Source: an uncultured beta proteobacterium (GTDB lineage: Bacteria; Pseudomonadota; Gammaproteobacteria; Burkholderiales; Burkholderiaceae_C). Taken from it: a stretch of DNA of 64,000 nucleotides. The position numbers and the translations under genes were made by a program. The stretch spans positions 44,006-108,005 of the forward strand of contig CAINUX010000203.1 of assembly GCA_903853895.1 (NCBI GenBank), in the 5' to 3' direction. The notes beneath the pieces were generated by a model. It did not search any database. It was not told where the DNA came from and saw only the letters and a program-made list of their open reading frames with translations. Positions 21,129 to 45,479 of the stretch are shown here, piece by piece. The first letter of the stretch is position 1, and every line of letters starts with the position of its first letter.

Positions 21129-21977
21129 TCATTTCGCCAGTTTTTTCAGATTGGAATCGGCGGGTCGTTCTCTTGCTAACGCTTGCCAGATGGTTTGTGC
21201 ATCGTCGGTGGCGCCGGCCTGTTGTAACTGGGCGGCGTAGAGGACCCAGGCCGAAAACGACGCGTCGGGCGCTGGCTTGATCAAGTCCAGAATCCGGGCA
21301 GCATCCGCAGCTACCACTGAAAAGCCCGTGCTGGTGGCGTTTGCAACCGGCTCGCCCGTCTGGTTGAGCGGCTCAACTTTCCACGTGTACCGGTTGCCCA
21401 GGCGCAGGCCGGAATCGGGCGTGAGCGCCAATTGTGCTTCCGTGGTGTTGCGTTGCCAGATGGTTTTGTTGGTGTCATCGCTGACAGTCACCCGGTAGCT
21501 ACTGGCTCCCGCCATGTGCTCCCACCGCAAGGTCGGCGTGGTATCCGGTATGGCCGTATTGGACGGATACATAGGGAGCTTGCCCAGCAAAACGGACCCG
21601 CCGCGCATGGTCATGGAAGCCCGGGAAAGCTTGCCGGTGGCAATCCTGACATCGGGCAGCGAACCCTCTGCAACACTGCGCATCTTGACCGTGCCTGTGG
21701 TCACGGACAGCACACCGCCGCTGGTGATGCGAAACTGGCCGGGGCCGCTGGCAAGGTACTCCTTGCCTGTGACCAGGTCGATCGCGGAAAATTGGAAGCC
21801 TGCGGGCGCGTCGACCAGGCTGCCATTGGCCATTTCGTTCAGTATCGCCAGCGGTGGTTTGCTGACAAGACCGGGCTTGCCGGTCACGTCCGTAATCAGG
21901 ACGTCGGCCCGGCCGGTGGATGGCTGAAAGAGGCTGGTGACCAGTATGGCAAGGGTGGTGGCTCTCAGCAGGCTCAT
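21129..21977 (-). CDS. FecR-domain secreted protein of the caspase/cyclase operon
   Basis: This 282-residue protein has a signal peptide (MSLLRATTLAILVTSLFQ) and a FecR-like domain around residues 40-130 (GSLVDAPAGFQFSAIDLVTG, YLASGPGQFRITSGGVLSV). A segment around 148-225 resembles a fibronectin-type or carbohydrate-binding beta domain (TPTLRWEHMAGASSYRVTVS). The tail APDASFSAWVLYAAQLQQAG with AQTIWQALARERPADSNLKK looks TPR-like. FecR domains sense or scaffold in the periplasm. The start overlaps the cyclase stop as ATGA, so the proteins are made together. Pairing of FecR-domain proteins with CHASE2 cyclases is known in proteobacteria; the exact role here is inferred to be an extracytoplasmic partner of the CHASE2 sensor. 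Confidence 0.75.
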   Translation of the reverse strand: MSLLRATTLAILVTSLFQPSTGRADVLITDVTGKPGLVSKPPLAILNEMANGSLVDAPAGFQFSAIDLVTGKEYLASGPGQFRITSGGVLSVTTGTVKMRSVAEGSLPDVRIATGKLSRASMTMRGGSVLLGKLPMYPSNTAIPDTTPTLRWEHMAGASSYRVTVSDDTNKTIWQRNTTEAQLALTPDSGLRLGNRYTWKVEPLNQTGEPVANATSTGFSVVAADAARILDLIKPAPDASFSAWVLYAAQLQQAGATDDAQTIWQALARERPADSNLKKLAK

Positions 21978-23752
21978 GGGCTGTTCCCCGGTTCGGGTTT
22001 CCAGGCAAATACTGCGATTGCAGAATGACCCCGGATCGACATCGTGCCCATGGAAACCAGGGCCCGGGTGTCTTGGACGTGATGGTACACATTGCTGGAG
22101 AGCAGGACAGGAAATCCGGAGTCCTTGGTCAGCCCCTCGATGCGCGATGCCGCATTGACCGTGTCGCCAATCGCGGAATATTCATATCGGTCACGAGAGC
22201 CGACATAGCCCATCACGGCAGGTCCGTAATGCAAGCCGACGCCAATGTCGATGGCGGGCGCGTCCATGGAAAGCTGCTCGGCGTTGAAGCGCCCCAACTC
22301 CCGGATCATGGACTGCGCACAGGCCAGAGCGTCGTCACAGGCGGTGTTGGACGCAACGGGCGCGCCAAACACGGCCATGAGGCCATCCCCGATGAATTTG
22401 TCCAGCGTTCCGCCATGGCTGTGAATGGTGCCCACCATGCGGTCAAAGTAGCGGTTGAGCAACGCGGTGACCTGTTCCGGAGGCATGGATTCGCTCAATG
22501 TGGTGAACCCTCGAATATCGGCGAACAGCACACAGATTTCCGATCGGACGCCGTCCATCTTCGGGTCGAGATTGCCGGCCAGAATCTCGGTCATCACGTC
22601 GGGGCTGACAAATCCGCCAAAGGTGTCGCGCAGCCTTTTGCGCTCGCGTATCAATAGCCAGGCATTGACCGCAGCCTTGGCGCCAACCCCCCCGGCCCAC
22701 GCGACGCAGAGGGACAGTGAAGCAACTGCCCAACCCGAGCGCAGCAAGACCAAGGAACTGACCTGAATGGCAATGGCCAGCACGACCATGCCAGCCCAGG
22801 TCCAGGCGCCTGGTCTAAGCCACCACCCCAGGGCCAACAACACCATGACTGCCAACTGGTACGGGAGCGCCAGCGGTTGGACCATGGCATTGCCCATCAT
22901 GCTGCGCAGTTGTTGTGCGTGAACGAGGACACCGTGTGAGGTTCCGTGTGGGGTGTTCCAGCTGCCCAAGGCCAGAGGTGTGCGCTGGTGGTCGTCGAAC
23001 GACATGACGCTACCCAGGAAGACGGCTTTGTTGGCGAAAGCGGCGCGCAGCAGATCCACCTGTCCTTCGCGCTGCCACGCAAGCACCGTGCGCAGAGGCA
23101 GGTATTGGAAGGCCGGACGGATGGCATAGTTGATGAGGCCCGGTGACGTTGGCACACCAATGGCACGCGCCATCTGTCCCGACAGCGTCGGAACCGGATT
23201 CTCCCCGTCACCGATTTTTTCGTCGAACACGCGAATCACCCCATCGGCGTCGGTGACGACGAAGATATACCCGAAGCCGGCCGCGCCCACCAGTGTTCTG
23301 AACAACGGGTGCACCGGTCTGGGGTTGCCGTCGCTGTCGGCGCTCAGTCCCAGTACCAGCGGGGCAATAGGTCGCAGTTTCAGGATGCCTCGCGCCAGAG
23401 TCGCATCCAGCCCTGGCAGCAGCTTGTCAAACGAAACGGCGGGGAGCAGCATGTCCAGGCCCACCACCCTGGGGCGTGCCATGGCCATGGCTTCCATAAA
23501 TGCACCCAACTCCCTGTGCATCAAGGCGGTGGGGACGCCGAACTGGAGCATGTCCTCGTCATCAATGCCGACAATGGCGACAGGTTCGCTATCCAGGATG
23601 GGTTGCTCGATGGACAGGAAGCGGAACTGCTGATCGCGCCATTGGCTTTCCAGCAGTTGGAATGACGGGGTTAAGAAGCACGCCAGAGCAAGCAGCCAGG
23701 GCAGGGCGAAACCCGCTGCGTTGATCCAGTGTTTTCTCGGGTGAGGTTCCAT
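21974..23752 (-). CDS. CHASE2-domain adenylate cyclase
   Basis: This 592-residue membrane enzyme has an N-terminal helix (about residues 12-32), an extracytoplasmic CHASE2 domain (about 40-285, with VAIVGIDDEDM and RPRVVGLDMLLP), three transmembrane helices (about 295-365) and a class III nucleotide cyclase domain (about 400-590). Metal-binding Asp412 (LFADIRGFT) and Asp456 (KFIGDGLMA) are present, as are the transition-state Asn533 and Arg537 (TVNAASR). Lys452 with a small polar residue at 526 favours ATP over GTP. The start at 23752 lies 8 nt after the caspase stop, and the stop overlaps the FecR gene by ATGA. It should convert an envelope signal into cAMP. Confidence 0.87.
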   Translation of the reverse strand: MEPHPRKHWINAAGFALPWLLALACFLTPSFQLLESQWRDQQFRFLSIEQPILDSEPVAIVGIDDEDMLQFGVPTALMHRELGAFMEAMAMARPRVVGLDMLLPAVSFDKLLPGLDATLARGILKLRPIAPLVLGLSADSDGNPRPVHPLFRTLVGAAGFGYIFVVTDADGVIRVFDEKIGDGENPVPTLSGQMARAIGVPTSPGLINYAIRPAFQYLPLRTVLAWQREGQVDLLRAAFANKAVFLGSVMSFDDHQRTPLALGSWNTPHGTSHGVLVHAQQLRSMMGNAMVQPLALPYQLAVMVLLALGWWLRPGAWTWAGMVVLAIAIQVSSLVLLRSGWAVASLSLCVAWAGGVGAKAAVNAWLLIRERKRLRDTFGGFVSPDVMTEILAGNLDPKMDGVRSEICVLFADIRGFTTLSESMPPEQVTALLNRYFDRMVGTIHSHGGTLDKFIGDGLMAVFGAPVASNTACDDALACAQSMIRELGRFNAEQLSMDAPAIDIGVGLHYGPAVMGYVGSRDRYEYSAIGDTVNAASRIEGLTKDSGFPVLLSSNVYHHVQDTRALVSMGTMSIRGHSAIAVFAWKPEPGNSP

Positions 23753-23760
23753 TGCCAGTT

Positions 23761-26688
23761 TTAGCGCTTCACCAGTGCAATAGGGAAGTCGCTGATTCCC
23801 GACGGTGTGATGCTGACTGGTGACTGCTGTCCCTTGGTCAGTTCTTTTACTCGCTCCGCCACGTAGAAGTCCAGCGCCTTGTGGGATATGACTCCGGTTT
23901 TCCGGAAGTCTGCCTTGCCGGTCAGTCCTTCCACGACCGCCTTGGTAAACGCGCCATTGCCCCACTCAGGTGCCTCTCTTGAAAACTGTCGGCCGGTTGA
24001 CGCTGCAAAAACAATGACGCCATTTTCGGCGGATGCCAGTTCATTGACGACAGCATTGACATCAACCACGCCACGGGTCTTTGCCGTGCCCAGGGCGTTG
24101 CCCGAGTGGCAGCTGTCAATGAAAAACAAGGCTTTTCCTGCAATGCTGTTCAACGCCAGTTTGATGTCGTTTTGCGCAACCCCGGTGCGCAGCAACTGTT
24201 CCGGGTTGCCGTCGTGGGGTAGGAAGTAGTAGTTGCCAGCGTTGTCATTCAGGCCGTGTCCGGCCAGAAAAAGTATGCCGACATCGCGGGACGTTACTTC
24301 ACGCTTAAGCCATTCCAGCCCGTCCAGAACGCCGTCCTTTGTGGCTTTCCCGTCGGTGAGTATCTTGACTTCCACGTCGCGGTACAGGCTCCCCTTTTGC
24401 AGGGACATCGCCTTGCTGAAGTCACCCGCATCCTTAGCGGCGAAGTCCAGGTTGTATGAGGCATTGCGGTACTTGGACATGCCAACTGCCAGCACATAGA
24501 GCTTGGGCGCCAGGGAGCTGTCGGTTTTGGTCGGGTTTGCGGGTGATGTGTCGCGGGGTCTTGCACCAGACCACTTCACCGGCACGACCGCTGGGGTCGA
24601 TATACCGTTGCGATTCTCGGCAAATACCTGTATCTCCGAGTCGTCTGCGGGTACCTTGACTGAGATCTCACGCCCGGAGGCGCCGGGTCCATCCGAGCTT
24701 TTCGCCAGGCGTGTTTCAGGCTGCAACAGGCCGTTGACCCGAACACGTACCGATAGCACGGGTGCATCGCTGGGCGTGCGGATGGCAATGCGAAGAGTCA
24801 ATTCCGCTTTGGCGGTCGACACGTCTCCAAGCGGGGACACTATCTCCACAATCGGCGGAAGTGCGACGGCTGCAATCTCAGATCGTGGTGTACGGTTGGC
24901 ATCCAAATCGGCCAGCCGAACCGCCTCTTGAATGTCTGCTGCCCCTAACACCCTGGCAACCACATCGGGCCGATAGTATTGCCCCCGAAATCGTGAGGCC
25001 GGGAAGAAATCTGCCGCCAGGTCCTTCCCCCGGTTCAGATGCCAGCCTATCAAGTCCTCTGATCCCGGGCCTGCTGCGAAGAAGCCGGATGGTGTCCACA
25101 GTACCCATCTGCGACGGTCGGTGTGCGCAAACAAAGTCAGATGTTCAGCTCCATCTTTTGCTGCGTACCAATGGATGGTGCCGTCACTGAAGGCCGCGAC
25201 GACCCATCGGCCGTTCTCGGAAACATTGACTTGCCAGGTCGTGCCTGGCGCAGCCACTCGCCAGAGTTCTGTTCCACTCGCGTTGTAGTACCGGACGTGC
25301 TGGCTGGTTCCGATCGCAAAACCTGAGTTGTTCGATGCAACCGCTGCGGTCATGGAAATTTCGGACTCATTCAGGCTTAGGCGACGTTGGTTCAATGTGG
25401 GGTTTGTGTTTTCGAACCAATCGCCTATGACTAGGGGAGGCTTCCCGGCGCCCGGTGGTTTCCATTGCGGTTGGGGTGCAGTCCACTGCAACTGCACGAC
25501 GTCGAATGCGGCAACATCACCCGTTCCTTGACTGCTGTTTAAAGGAAATGCAACGCTTGCCCCGTCTCGGGATAAACGAAAAGCGCTGCGTGCATTGCGG
25601 AAGTCCGCCAGGGCACTGCCAAACGATTGATTGGTATATCCACTGGTAGTGCTTTTTAGCCAACCCCACGAAGGTTCAGCAGACGCGTAGACCACGCGGC
25701 CGTCGGCTAAGGTGTGGACACCGACCACACTGTTGCTGGCAACACTTTCGTCGTTTGCAGCACCCTTGCCGCCCTGTCGCCAGCGCCGAAGGACGTTCAA
25801 GCGATCTGCACCTCGCCAGGTTCCCGCAGCGAGCAAGTCCTCACCATCTCGTGTCCAGGAAACAGCGTTCAGACTGCCGCCCGAAATACCTGTAGTGCTG
25901 GGAGCGTAGGCCAGTTGCAAGGTGTCTGCGTTCAATACGGCAACCGAGGTTGAGTCCGAAAACCCCACGGCCAGGAGTCGATTGTCCGGTGACCAGGCTA
26001 CGCCAAACGGCTGCCGCCCTTGGTTGGGGCGGGTGCTGCCTGCAAGTCTGAGGGGCCGTTGCGTTGCGTCGTAAGCACGGATCAACCCGTCGGTACTTGC
26101 CACGGCGAGTCGGGCACCGTCCCAAGAGAACTTGGCCCCGGTGACTGCACCCTCGTAGCGGTTGTCGCTGCCGGTCTCGCGGCTGCTGTGCCAGCCAGAA
26201 TCGCTGCTGAACAGGCGAACGCCATTTACACCCCACAGCCCTACGGCGAGAGTCCTTCCGTCAGGGGAGAACGTGAGTTGAGTGACAACATCTGGCAATC
26301 CGGTGATGCGATGCCAAAGTGCGCCACTGGATCGATCAAACAGGTAGACGTCGTTGTCCGCGGACCACCCGCCCACCGCCACCATGGCACCGTCCGGAGT
26401 CATTGCCGCAGCAAAGAGCTTTCCGTCGTTACCTGGGCCCACCGGGGGTCTCAGGACTTGCAATAGCTTGCCACTTTCAAGATCCCAGATGCTGGCCGTC
26501 TTGTCTTCCGCAGCCGTTACGGCATACCGCCCTTTGCTGTCAACATCGATTGCACGAATGGGCGCGCTGTGCGAACCAATACTGGTCCGCAATATAGGGA
26601 CTTCCGCTGGCTGGTCTGGACCCGCAAAGGAATTCCAGACGCATGTGGCAAGTGCAAAGGCACACACGCGGCTGAAATACGTCTTCAC
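23761..26688 (-). CDS. Exported WD40-repeat caspase-like protease
   Basis: This 975-residue protein starts with a signal peptide (MKTYFSRVCAFALATCVWNS, cut near FAG). Residues 38 to about 550 form WD40-type beta-propeller repeats (IRAIDVDSKGRYAVTAAEDK then TASIWDL; FSPDGRTLAVG; AWSPDNRLLAVGFSD; VSENGRWVVAAFSDGTIHWY). An Ig-like beta region spans about 610-705. The C-terminal peptidase C14 domain (about 728-970) has the catalytic dyad His811 (FLAGHGLND) and Cys860 (FFIDSCHSGNA), so it is predicted active. The signal peptide implies periplasmic action, unlike most defence caspases. It lies between the OmpA-like gene (12 nt upstream) and the CHASE2 cyclase gene (8 nt downstream). The trigger and substrate are unknown; propeller-caspase fusions usually act as sensor-executor proteins. 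Confidence 0.85.
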   Translation of the reverse strand: MKTYFSRVCAFALATCVWNSFAGPDQPAEVPILRTSIGSHSAPIRAIDVDSKGRYAVTAAEDKTASIWDLESGKLLQVLRPPVGPGNDGKLFAAAMTPDGAMVAVGGWSADNDVYLFDRSSGALWHRITGLPDVVTQLTFSPDGRTLAVGLWGVNGVRLFSSDSGWHSSRETGSDNRYEGAVTGAKFSWDGARLAVASTDGLIRAYDATQRPLRLAGSTRPNQGRQPFGVAWSPDNRLLAVGFSDSTSVAVLNADTLQLAYAPSTTGISGGSLNAVSWTRDGEDLLAAGTWRGADRLNVLRRWRQGGKGAANDESVASNSVVGVHTLADGRVVYASAEPSWGWLKSTTSGYTNQSFGSALADFRNARSAFRLSRDGASVAFPLNSSQGTGDVAAFDVVQLQWTAPQPQWKPPGAGKPPLVIGDWFENTNPTLNQRRLSLNESEISMTAAVASNNSGFAIGTSQHVRYYNASGTELWRVAAPGTTWQVNVSENGRWVVAAFSDGTIHWYAAKDGAEHLTLFAHTDRRRWVLWTPSGFFAAGPGSEDLIGWHLNRGKDLAADFFPASRFRGQYYRPDVVARVLGAADIQEAVRLADLDANRTPRSEIAAVALPPIVEIVSPLGDVSTAKAELTLRIAIRTPSDAPVLSVRVRVNGLLQPETRLAKSSDGPGASGREISVKVPADDSEIQVFAENRNGISTPAVVPVKWSGARPRDTSPANPTKTDSSLAPKLYVLAVGMSKYRNASYNLDFAAKDAGDFSKAMSLQKGSLYRDVEVKILTDGKATKDGVLDGLEWLKREVTSRDVGILFLAGHGLNDNAGNYYFLPHDGNPEQLLRTGVAQNDIKLALNSIAGKALFFIDSCHSGNALGTAKTRGVVDVNAVVNELASAENGVIVFAASTGRQFSREAPEWGNGAFTKAVVEGLTGKADFRKTGVISHKALDFYVAERVKELTKGQQSPVSITPSGISDFPIALVKR

Positions 26689-26700
26689 TGTGGCCCTGAC

Positions 26701-27993
26701 TCAACTCGTCGTCGGACATTGCGCCGATTTGAATTCGATGCGCCGATCCAGGGAGTCAAAGGGATCGCCTTTTCCGGTGGCAACCAGTGCCTCGCTGGAA
26801 CCATAGCCCTTCGTTGATATCACGTTTGCCAGATCCTTGCGTTCTGCGAGCAGACGCTGCTTGACGTATTCGGCGCGCTGAAGCGCCAGGCGTTCGTTGA
26901 GTGGCTCCGAGCCTCCACGGCCGGTATGGCCGCCAACCTCAAAGCAGGTCTCGGAGGTTTTCGCCAATTTCGATGACACACTGGCCAGTTCCTTGATCCA
27001 CCGGTCGTAAGGATTTTCATCTTTGGCCAGTGCCGAACCACCGCTTTGGAAACCAAATTTGACCGCCAGGCGTTTCGCGCTCATACCCTGTGATGCCATT
27101 TTCGAGAACACCTGCATGGCTGCATCGCGACGCCCCAATTTGACGTTGGAGAGGTAGATCCCCGTGTGCACCCTGGCCTGGTCACCTGCCGGGTTTCGCA
27201 ACAGGGCGGTAAAGAGAGCCAGAGAATCCTTGTACTTCTTGCTGTTGTACGCTTTGGTGGCCTCGTCGATGCCGGCAACGACGCTCACCTTGTCCAGGTA
27301 GGCTGTATTGATAGGGTCTCCCGCGCTGGTGCCCTGGCAAGTCTTGATATAGCCTTCCACGATTTTGTCATTGACCCAAAGGGGTGCATCGCGAAAGTAG
27401 GGCAAGGGTGTCGGATCGATGCCGTCAGTTTGTGACCTGGCAAACCCCTTGCTGACAATCTTGCCAGTCTTGAGATCGGCGAGTGCAAAGCAAACGCGAT
27501 AAGCGTCACGTTCGCCCGAGGCCTTGCCTTGCAGGTTGATAGGGGTAAACGTTCCTATGAATACCAGCGGCGCCGCGGCCAGGTTGGCGGCATTAAAGGG
27601 CTTGACCTGGTACCGGGGATAGTTGTTGGAAACAATTTCTGTGACCTGCTGTTCCAGTGCAACCGTGGCGACGGACTGCATCCCCGTCGTTCCATCGACC
27701 AGGGGATCAATGACCAGACTGAAGGATTGGCCATCGGGCAATTTGGCTTTCGTGAACAAATCGCGTGCGGCCAGTTTGACTGCATCCCCATAGGGCAGTG
27801 CAACAACGACCGGCGGTGCGACAGGAGCAGGCTGTGCTACCGCCACGGTGGCCGGCGCTGCTGGGACTGGGGCTCGCACAACCTCCTGCGGCGCGCATGC
27901 AATCATGGACGCGCCAAGGAGCGGGACCCACTTGAAACACCCTTTGGATGCATGGCGGGTCCGGCAGGGAACGCTGGGTAAAAAGTGTTTCAT
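26701..27993 (-). CDS. OmpA-like lipoprotein, first gene of the caspase/cyclase operon
   Basis: This 430-residue protein has a hydrophobic N-terminus ending in a lipobox-like MIAC (Cys33), so it is probably an outer membrane lipoprotein. A Pro/Ala/Val-rich linker (41-65) precedes a domain at about 70-220 resembling those that sense or bind lipoprotein partners (FIGTFTPINLQGKASGERDA). A helical repeat region (about 240-305, SKKYKDSLALFTALLRNPAG) follows, then an OmpA C-terminal domain (about 335-425). The peptidoglycan motif reads GGHTGRGG, so the usual Asp after T is Gly358; the arginine in LALQRAEYVKQ is kept. Peptidoglycan binding may be weakened. A GAGG site lies 7 nt before the start and a candidate promoter lies just upstream. 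Confidence 0.75.
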   Translation of the reverse strand: MKHFLPSVPCRTRHASKGCFKWVPLLGASMIACAPQEVVRAPVPAAPATVAVAQPAPVAPPVVVALPYGDAVKLAARDLFTKAKLPDGQSFSLVIDPLVDGTTGMQSVATVALEQQVTEIVSNNYPRYQVKPFNAANLAAAPLVFIGTFTPINLQGKASGERDAYRVCFALADLKTGKIVSKGFARSQTDGIDPTPLPYFRDAPLWVNDKIVEGYIKTCQGTSAGDPINTAYLDKVSVVAGIDEATKAYNSKKYKDSLALFTALLRNPAGDQARVHTGIYLSNVKLGRRDAAMQVFSKMASQGMSAKRLAVKFGFQSGGSALAKDENPYDRWIKELASVSSKLAKTSETCFEVGGHTGRGGSEPLNERLALQRAEYVKQRLLAERKDLANVISTKGYGSSEALVATGKGDPFDSLDRRIEFKSAQCPTTS

Positions 27994-43961: not shown

Positions 43962-45479
43962 TTAGCCCAGTGGCCCCAAATCGTCGCCATAGAGTGCGGC
44001 GTCGTCCGAGCCCGAATCGGAGAACCCTCCTGCGGTAGACGTGTCTTTTGAGCTGCTGTCACCCAACAGTTCAAAGGGCAGGGATTGCTTGACCAGGATG
44101 ATGGTACAGGGCGCGTCCATCGCCACCTTGATGGGTACGGTGGCGACGAAACGCTGCGTTTTCAGCCCGTGCGTGGCCGCTCCCATCACGATGACGCTGA
44201 CGTGGTTGCCCCGGGCATAGTCCAGAATGGCCTGGGCCACGTCGCCCGATTCGAGCACGTGGAACGAGGTCTGGTGGCCGGGGTGGTCCAGCGGCTGGGC
44301 CCACTGGCGCAACGTCGTCAGGTAGCGGCGGTGGACGTTGGTTTCGCTTTTGTCTTCATCGGTGCTGCTGGTCTGCCCGGACGAAATGACCGTAACACAG
44401 GCCAGGCGTGCCCCGATGCGGGTGCCCAGCGAGCGGGCCACAGCCTGGCGCAAGGAATACAGCGTTGCATCGGTCACGTCCTTGTGGGGCACGGCCACCA
44501 TCACGATGGGCACTTCGTCGATTTGTTGTGCTGCGATGGGACTGGGCTTGTACTGCATGCCCGCCGCCTTGATCCATCTCTTGAAGTGCGTGCCAAACCG
44601 GGTGCCCGTGACATTGGTTCCGCGGTGGGTGATGGTGATCTGCTCCGGATGTACCAGATCAAAGGCCAGGTGCGCCGCCGATGGGTAGCGGTGCGCGGCT
44701 TCGGGCTCCAGGCAACGCATGACCACTTCTTGCAGCCAAGGAGGCAATTCGGGCTTGAGCTTGCGTGGAGGTACCGGGTCCACCCACAGCCGTTGCCGCA
44801 AGCCGCCATCGGTTTGAGGGGCACCAAAAGGCAGCCGTCCGGTGCACAGCTGGTAGAGCATGACGCCGACCGCAAAAATGTCGCTGCGTGGGTCGCCGCG
44901 CACACCCACCACTTGCTCGGGCGCAATCCAGGCAGGGGAGCCTACGGCCTTGCGCAACTGCTCAGCCAGCAGATCGGGGTAGTGCGCGTGGCACGACAGG
45001 CCAAAGTCCAGCAGCACAGCCGTGCCGTCCCCGCGGAACAGCACATTGGCGGGCTTGAGATCCAGATGCACCGTGTTCTGTTGGTGCAGGGCATGCAAGG
45101 CACGGGCCATCGCTGAGCCTAGCCAGGCGATCTGCTCGACGCTGGGAGGTGTTTCAGAGTCCAGCCAGTGCTCCAGGGTCTCGCCCGTGACGTACTCCAT
45201 GACCAGATAGGGCACGCGGGAAAGGTCGCCAGCGGCCACAAAGCGCGGCACATGGCGGCCCTGCAGCACCTGCATGATCTGGCACTCGATCTCGAAACTG
45301 ACAATGTTTTCCGCGCCGTCGCCCGCCGTCATGCGCGGAATCTTCATCGCCATGGCAAAGCCCGGGTCGCGCTGGCCGTCGGCGTAGTGCACGCGGTAGA
45401 TGTGGGCCATGCCGCCGGAGTGGATGCACTCTTCAATCGTGAAGCCGTCCAGCTCGGCCCCGGGCTCCAGCAGTTTCAT
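43962..45479 (-). CDS. Serine/threonine protein kinase with C-terminal Usp domain
   Basis: This 505-residue cytosolic protein has a Hanks-type kinase domain (about residues 10-270). Readable residues are the glycine loop IHSGGMAHIY, Lys46 in MAMKIPR, the catalytic loop HLDLKPANV with Asp140, and DFG Asp158. The loop reads HLD rather than HRD, so it is a non-RD kinase. After a linker, residues 330-475 form a universal stress protein domain (VPIVMVAVPHKDVTDATLYS; HVSVIVMGAATHGLKTQRFV). The acidic Ser/Asp tail follows. No membrane segment is visible. Its start overlaps the stop of the metallophosphoesterase gene by ATGA, forming a kinase/phosphatase-type pair. Substrate is unknown. Confidence 0.85.
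   Translation of the reverse strand: MKLLEPGAELDGFTIEECIHSGGMAHIYRVHYADGQRDPGFAMAMKIPRMTAGDGAENIVSFEIECQIMQVLQGRHVPRFVAAGDLSRVPYLVMEYVTGETLEHWLDSETPPSVEQIAWLGSAMARALHALHQQNTVHLDLKPANVLFRGDGTAVLLDFGLSCHAHYPDLLAEQLRKAVGSPAWIAPEQVVGVRGDPRSDIFAVGVMLYQLCTGRLPFGAPQTDGGLRQRLWVDPVPPRKLKPELPPWLQEVVMRCLEPEAAHRYPSAAHLAFDLVHPEQITITHRGTNVTGTRFGTHFKRWIKAAGMQYKPSPIAAQQIDEVPIVMVAVPHKDVTDATLYSLRQAVARSLGTRIGARLACVTVISSGQTSSTDEDKSETNVHRRYLTTLRQWAQPLDHPGHQTSFHVLESGDVAQAILDYARGNHVSVIVMGAATHGLKTQRFVATVPIKVAMDAPCTIILVKQSLPFELLGDSSSKDTSTAGGFSDSGSDDAALYGDDLGPLG

Follow-up and report, generated by a model that had tools for sequence, protein, structure and literature searches.

The window, i.e., the whole stretch of 64,000 nucleotides, carries on its minus strand a gene for a protein combining a predicted signal peptide, a WD40-type beta-propeller, a putative Ig-like domain and a Peptidase_C14 domain. 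It is flanked on its 5′ side by a lipoprotein gene and on its 3′ side by genes for a CHASE2-containing nucleotide cyclase and a FecR/Ig-like protein (Table 1). The 19 nucleotides 5′ of the GTG start codon are identical to those at the homologous locus L003. Elsewhere in the window, the N-terminus encoded at 43962-45479 (minus strand) resembles a Ser/Thr protein kinase.

Table 1. Features of the protease locus, with positions in the window.
Feature	Positions	Strand	Details and basis
Gene for predicted exported propeller/Ig-like/Peptidase_C14 protein	23761..26688	minus	975 aa; GTG start at 26688, stop ends at 23761
AGGG, Shine-Dalgarno-like	26694..26697	minus	5 nt upstream of the protease GTG; sequence
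Predicted signal peptide, residues 1-22	26623..26688	minus	sequence, conservation, model helix 2-20; predicted cleavage after S-F-A22
WD40-type beta-propeller region, residues 32-563	25000..26595	minus	Pfam, model strands, Foldseek
Putative Ig-like beta domain, residues 613-706	24571..24852	minus	strand pattern of the model, from which the domain name is inferred
Peptidase C14 (caspase/metacaspase) domain, residues 729-972	23773..24504	minus	Pfam PF00656, model
Catalytic His811 (GHG)	24256..24258	minus	invariant, 22 homologues
Catalytic Cys860 (DSCHSG), sole cysteine of the mature chain	24109..24111	minus	invariant, 22 homologues; Cys count
Asp858, predicted acidic S1-pocket residue, cf. TbMCA2 Asp211	24115..24117	minus	invariant; PMC4357240, PMC6426788
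Asp753, predicted second acidic S1-pocket residue, cf. TbMCA2 Asp95	24430..24432	minus	invariant; equivalence inferred
Lipoprotein gene, 430 aa, 12 nt upstream of the protease	26701..27993	minus	lipobox Cys33, Pro/Ala-rich linker, LpoB-like domain, helical repeats, OmpA-like domain
CHASE2 (periplasmic sensor) plus class III nucleotide cyclase gene, 8 nt downstream of the protease	21974..23752	minus	Pfam
Gene for exported FecR/Ig-like protein, 4-nt overlap with the cyclase gene	21129..21977	minus	signal-peptide-like N-terminus, weak Ig match

Pfam searches with the protease sequence placed the start of the WD40 match at residue 36 and the Peptidase_C14 match at residues 732-957, the latter with an E-value of 8e-14 and 52.3 bits (cut-off 21.4). 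An AlphaFold model built from a 22-sequence alignment (mean pLDDT 82.8, pTM 0.66) contains a helix at residues 2-20, a low-confidence stretch at 21-28 and propeller strands up to about residue 563, followed by a helical segment, a beta domain (613-706) of Ig-like appearance and the C14 domain. Structure prediction of the propeller and the C14 domain had been proposed as a check in the preliminary description, and the model shows both. Foldseek searches with it returned propeller matches, including the 7-bladed nvWRAP-T (TMt 0.87). C14 folds were absent from the top 50 matches of the full-length model since WD40 matches dominate there.

With a C14 domain that carries a His-Cys dyad, the protein falls into the C14/orthocaspase group. 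His811, Gly812, Asp858, and Cys860 are invariant in the alignment of 22 homologues, in line with the earlier claim of an intact catalytic dyad, and Asp753 is invariant as well. For the metacaspase TbMCA2, two acidic residues, Asp95 and Asp211, have been placed in the predicted substrate pocket (PMC4357240, PMC6426788). By motif position these appear to correspond to Asp753 and Asp858, and cleavage after Arg or Lys is therefore predicted. Judged from its sequence, the protease is probably an active caspase-like enzyme of the orthocaspase/metacaspase type. The same genome contains a second C14 gene with a better score (138 bits) on another contig (L001, G000:C106:36548-37207).

The N-terminus of the protease, MKTYFSRVCAFALATCVWNSFA followed by GPDQ, combines a basic n-region with a hydrophobic core and an S-x-A cleavage site, and is of the Sec/SPI type without a twin arginine. 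The possibility that the protease itself is a lipoprotein was rejected, as the motif LATC with Thr at position -1 was judged a poor lipobox. The open reading frame spans 979 aa, which puts an in-frame stop four codons ahead of the GTG at 26688 and makes this GTG the first possible start. The only other start codons ahead of the propeller are a GTG at codon 8 and a TTG at codon 33. In comparison with the protease of L003 (91% identical), codons 1-31 contain seven synonymous and two non-synonymous changes, with eight of the ten nucleotide differences at the third codon position. This bias indicates that the segment is translated and makes a start at codon 33 unlikely. A start downstream of the signal peptide, named in the preliminary description as the finding that would overturn a periplasmic location, was consequently rejected on this codon pattern.

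Among the homologues, 30 of 33 full-length and 12 of 14 propeller-only proteins satisfied a signal-peptide heuristic (basic n-region, hydrophobic 10-mer, A-x-A-like site). The corresponding figure for other ORFs of at least 200 aa from the same loci was 98 of 311 (Fisher p 2e-11, uncorrected for relatedness), a background that includes truly exported proteins as well as spurious ORFs. Two of the three full-length proteins missed by the heuristic, L052 and L054, look signal-peptide-like by eye, and the third, L081, does not. L081 (6893-9808) has intact catalytic motifs and eight cysteines, and is possibly a cytosolic member. In four homologues (L084, L085, L088, and L091) a lipobox takes the place of the signal peptide, which implies that export survives a change of signal type. 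The mature protease of the window contains one cysteine, the catalytic one, compared with an expectation of about 7.5 based on twelve further ORFs of the window (P 0.005), an argument of little weight because composition varies and some of the twelve ORFs were picked by length alone. That the protease acts in the cytosol, either through translation from the TTG at codon 33 or because the N-terminal helix is no signal, is barely conceivable: the TTG and the homologue L081 would fit such a reading, but codons 1-31 are under coding constraint, and an N-terminal signal is retained by almost every homologue even though the sequences diverge. The same constraint and the result for the full-length homologues bear out the periplasmic location proposed earlier, and strongly support a protease that is predicted to be exported to the periplasm. 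The propeller also belongs, as had been stated, to the same exported chain, with signal peptide, WD40 region and C14 domain following one another in a single 975-aa ORF.

Several homologous loci encode variants of this architecture. Stand-alone exported propellers of about 600 aa without a protease domain occur at L089, L090, L092-L097, L099, and L100, and match only about residues 25-582 of the window protease. The loci L044 (7273-11181) and L050 (7152-11060) encode exported fusion proteins of about 1300 aa in which the propeller has a C14-like motif set on either side. At L098 (3284-8129), two genes for exported C14 proteins adjoin one another and lie beside a glycine-zipper lipoprotein; the second of the two encodes a DUF4384 domain. 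The 1037-aa ORF of this locus contains a C14 domain itself and is not one half of a split propeller and protease.

The prokaryotic caspase homologues, i.e., the orthocaspases or bacterial metacaspases (PF00656, MEROPS C14), share with the window protease the GHG and DSCHSG motifs and acidic residues in a presumed S1 pocket, and WD40 is a common partner domain among them (PMC3501461). What sets the window protease apart is a signal peptide that is conserved across the whole propeller-C14 family, and an outer-membrane lipoprotein as partner. Export had been set against the cytosolic action of most bacterial caspase-like proteins in defense, but exported C14 proteins are not unusual. A simple heuristic, with some frames doubtful, recognized a lipobox or signal peptide in six of the 14 further proteobacterial C14 genes whose N-terminus could be seen, and a survey from 2012 already interpreted the N-terminal helices of many prokaryotic metacaspases as likely signal peptides (PMC3501461). 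The surprise thus lies in a swappable set of partners and not in export alone.

The best clue to the function of the protease is the adjacent OmpA/LpoB-like lipoprotein, which the preliminary description did not mention. Its gene is found immediately 5′ of the protease gene in 10 loci from Comamonadaceae and Rhodocyclaceae, and the lipobox Cys33 as well as four cysteines of the mature protein are invariant in all 10 relatives. The invariant mature cysteines are consistent with an oxidizing periplasm. The OmpA domain was identified by Pfam, and Foldseek searches with the lipoprotein model matched OmpA/Pal-type domains and, with a different part of the protein and at similar E-values, LpoB (2mii and 4q6l; 1e-4 and 7e-4). 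The aspartate of the GHTD motif is the usual DAP-binding residue of OmpA domains. In the whole lipoprotein family this position is occupied by Gly or Ser, so that normal peptidoglycan binding should not be assumed and peptidoglycan sensing is uncertain. Beside many more distant protease homologues no such lipoprotein gene is found, and these adjoin other exported proteins, namely small OmpA proteins, Ig- or RCC1-rich lipoproteins and a TPS-domain protein. Taken together, a partnership of lipoprotein and protease appears likely.

Relatives of the lipoprotein were detected at E ≤ 1e-25 in 46 of 301 genomes of the same bacterial family. The copies sampled for their partners were 52 that do not lie beside a C14 gene; they were selected by similarity and come predominantly from one bacterial family. 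The gene preceding the lipoprotein encodes a Ser/Thr-kinase-like protein in 31 copies, a TIR protein in four, a CGGG-type lipoprotein in three and an unclassed protein with a tail motif in six, and nothing was recognized in the remaining eight; for most partners these classes are heuristic, being based on BLAST comparison to a few reference proteins. Pfam confirmed kinase or TIR domains in twelve partners and revealed AAA domains in two that had been recognized by the motif only. In many cases the partner gene shares 4 nt with the lipoprotein gene or stops only a few nt away from it. Of fourteen partners that were inspected, most contain a TM-like segment and a Pro/Ala-rich linker, and have an ending of the kind RC..LL.R..LGE.LS......EC. 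This two-cysteine tail (C..LG..L..EC) is present on most kinase and TIR partners (loci L154-L203, comprising kinases, TIR, and AAA proteins) and is probably periplasmic. The simplest reading of such a partner is that of a cytoplasmic enzyme with a tail that reaches the outer-membrane lipoprotein.

At the window protease, an LpoB/OmpA-like lipoprotein gene likewise stands beside the gene of a putative output enzyme. The protease, ending in ...SGISDFPIALVKR, lacks the two-cysteine tail, and no shared docking element was found. It is therefore placed in the lipoprotein-centered module by the shared lipoprotein only. Moreover, the lipoprotein gene precedes the protease gene but follows those of the kinases and TIR proteins, and the operon logic is hence not identical for the two kinds of pairs. 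In a tree of the lipoprotein, the C14-paired sequences form a group (87/63, short of what the program counts as firm support) next to a TIR- and kinase-paired clade and inside a supported clade (99/96). Six partner labels on this tree require 9 changes, compared to a mean of 29 for shuffled labels, which suggests that partners are stable within clades and were changed between clades.

Next to the protease gene, the CHASE2-cyclase and FecR-like genes occur solely in the window and at L003, and the cyclase was therefore rejected as a general partner of the protease. At L173, a pair of this kind is present away from C14. The FecR/CHASE2 sensor operons (e.g., BiofilmReg, PMC5192318) likewise place an exported FecR-like protein next to a CHASE2 receptor. 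The output in the window differs from these operons in being a nucleotide cyclase instead of a histidine kinase, and linkage to a protease is restricted to the window and L003.

The nearest described two-gene arrangement is that of the EACC1-caspase systems (PMC7159879; NCBIfam NF047832), which are membrane-proximal, carry the caspase as second gene and have cyclase alternatives. In contrast to these, the 5′ gene of the window encodes an OmpA/LpoB-like lipoprotein and not a single-TM EACC1 protein, and the caspase domain is C-terminal and predicted to be exported. The NF047832 model scored 70.8 bits (cut-off 140 bits), and the locus departs from these systems in both defining features compared, this score and the EACC1 single-TM domain of the 5′ gene. 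The partner resembles LpoB and the Pal/OmpA-type lipoproteins in its lipobox, its OmpA-like domain and its fold match to LpoB. It differs from them in joining both domains in one chain, in the replacement of the usual DAP-binding Asp and in the pairing of its gene with kinases, TIR proteins or the protease. No description of a system combining caspase, CHASE2, and WD40, or OmpA, TIR, kinase, and LpoB, was found in the open-licence papers searched.

Three further readings of the locus have to be weighed against a joint function of protease and lipoprotein. The protease might be a maturation or shedding enzyme of the gingipain type that trims large exported or lipid-anchored neighbors without any sensing. 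This would agree with the large Ig-rich or RCC1/Big-domain lipoproteins encoded beside the homologues at L048, L049, L055, L056, and L059, with the TPS-domain exoprotein beside that at L058, and with the basic P1 specificity predicted for the C14 domain. However, the window and the nine loci of the nearest type have an OmpA/LpoB-like lipoprotein as neighbor, and no adhesin-like substrate was recognized alongside, so that such a role seems unlikely here. We consider it quite improbable that the lipoprotein is an incidental neighbor and that propeller and protease, though exported, serve periplasmic protein turnover by themselves. The many homologues without an OmpA neighbor and the existence of stand-alone exported propellers of the same family speak for this view, yet the adjacency is kept in the 10 Comamonadaceae and Rhodocyclaceae loci despite differing surroundings.

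A role in defense or programmed death, with cleavage of envelope proteins upon phage attack killing or arresting the cell, is very doubtful. Caspase-like and TIR domains are common effectors of conflict systems (PMC7159879, PMC8195603), and the lipoprotein family also pairs with TIR proteins. Nevertheless, a PADLOC scan of five genes recognized no defense gene and no gene of a specific anti-phage system beside the protease, and its matches were generic, with caspase at 32.7 bits, the class III cyclase domain matching PycC, and other weak ones. The defense setting evoked in the preliminary description thus found no support, and the commonest partners of the lipoprotein are kinases and not toxins.

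The reading preferred here, for and against which we see the case as evenly balanced, is that a modular system for envelope sensing, which includes the lipoprotein encoded upstream, has the exported protease as its output in the periplasm. According to this model, the Sec-exported caspase-like protease would act in the periplasm jointly with the outer-membrane lipoprotein, which would be the shared envelope-facing part, with its outer-membrane anchor, its LpoB-like domain and its modified OmpA domain, and would probably sense the state of the envelope or the cell wall. Membrane kinases, TIR proteins or other proteins entering the periplasm via the conserved two-cysteine tail would be the output in other genomes. 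In the lineage of the window, the output would be an exported protease for which no tail is needed. The propeller would most likely bind the lipoprotein or a substrate, and the C14 domain would most likely cut envelope proteins after Arg or Lys. A sensor and an executor in one chain, as read from the sequence, are plausible. In the window lineage, the CHASE2-cyclase and the FecR-like protein encoded downstream may relay this state inward as a cyclic nucleotide.

More broadly, and only tentatively, the observations might point to an undescribed envelope-surveillance system, mainly of Burkholderiales, in which one outer-membrane LpoB/OmpA-like lipoprotein serves interchangeable outputs, either kinases and TIR proteins whose two-cysteine tail spans the periplasm to meet it or, in the branch of the window, an exported caspase-like protease active in the periplasm. 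If this is true, an outer-membrane lipoprotein would control a caspase-type protease that acts beyond the cytoplasm, and this family of lipoproteins would also feed kinases and TIR proteins across the periplasm. The role of exported bacterial caspases has been a question since the first surveys noted their likely signal peptides, and lipoprotein and output enzyme would then offer a testable two-part handle on their function.
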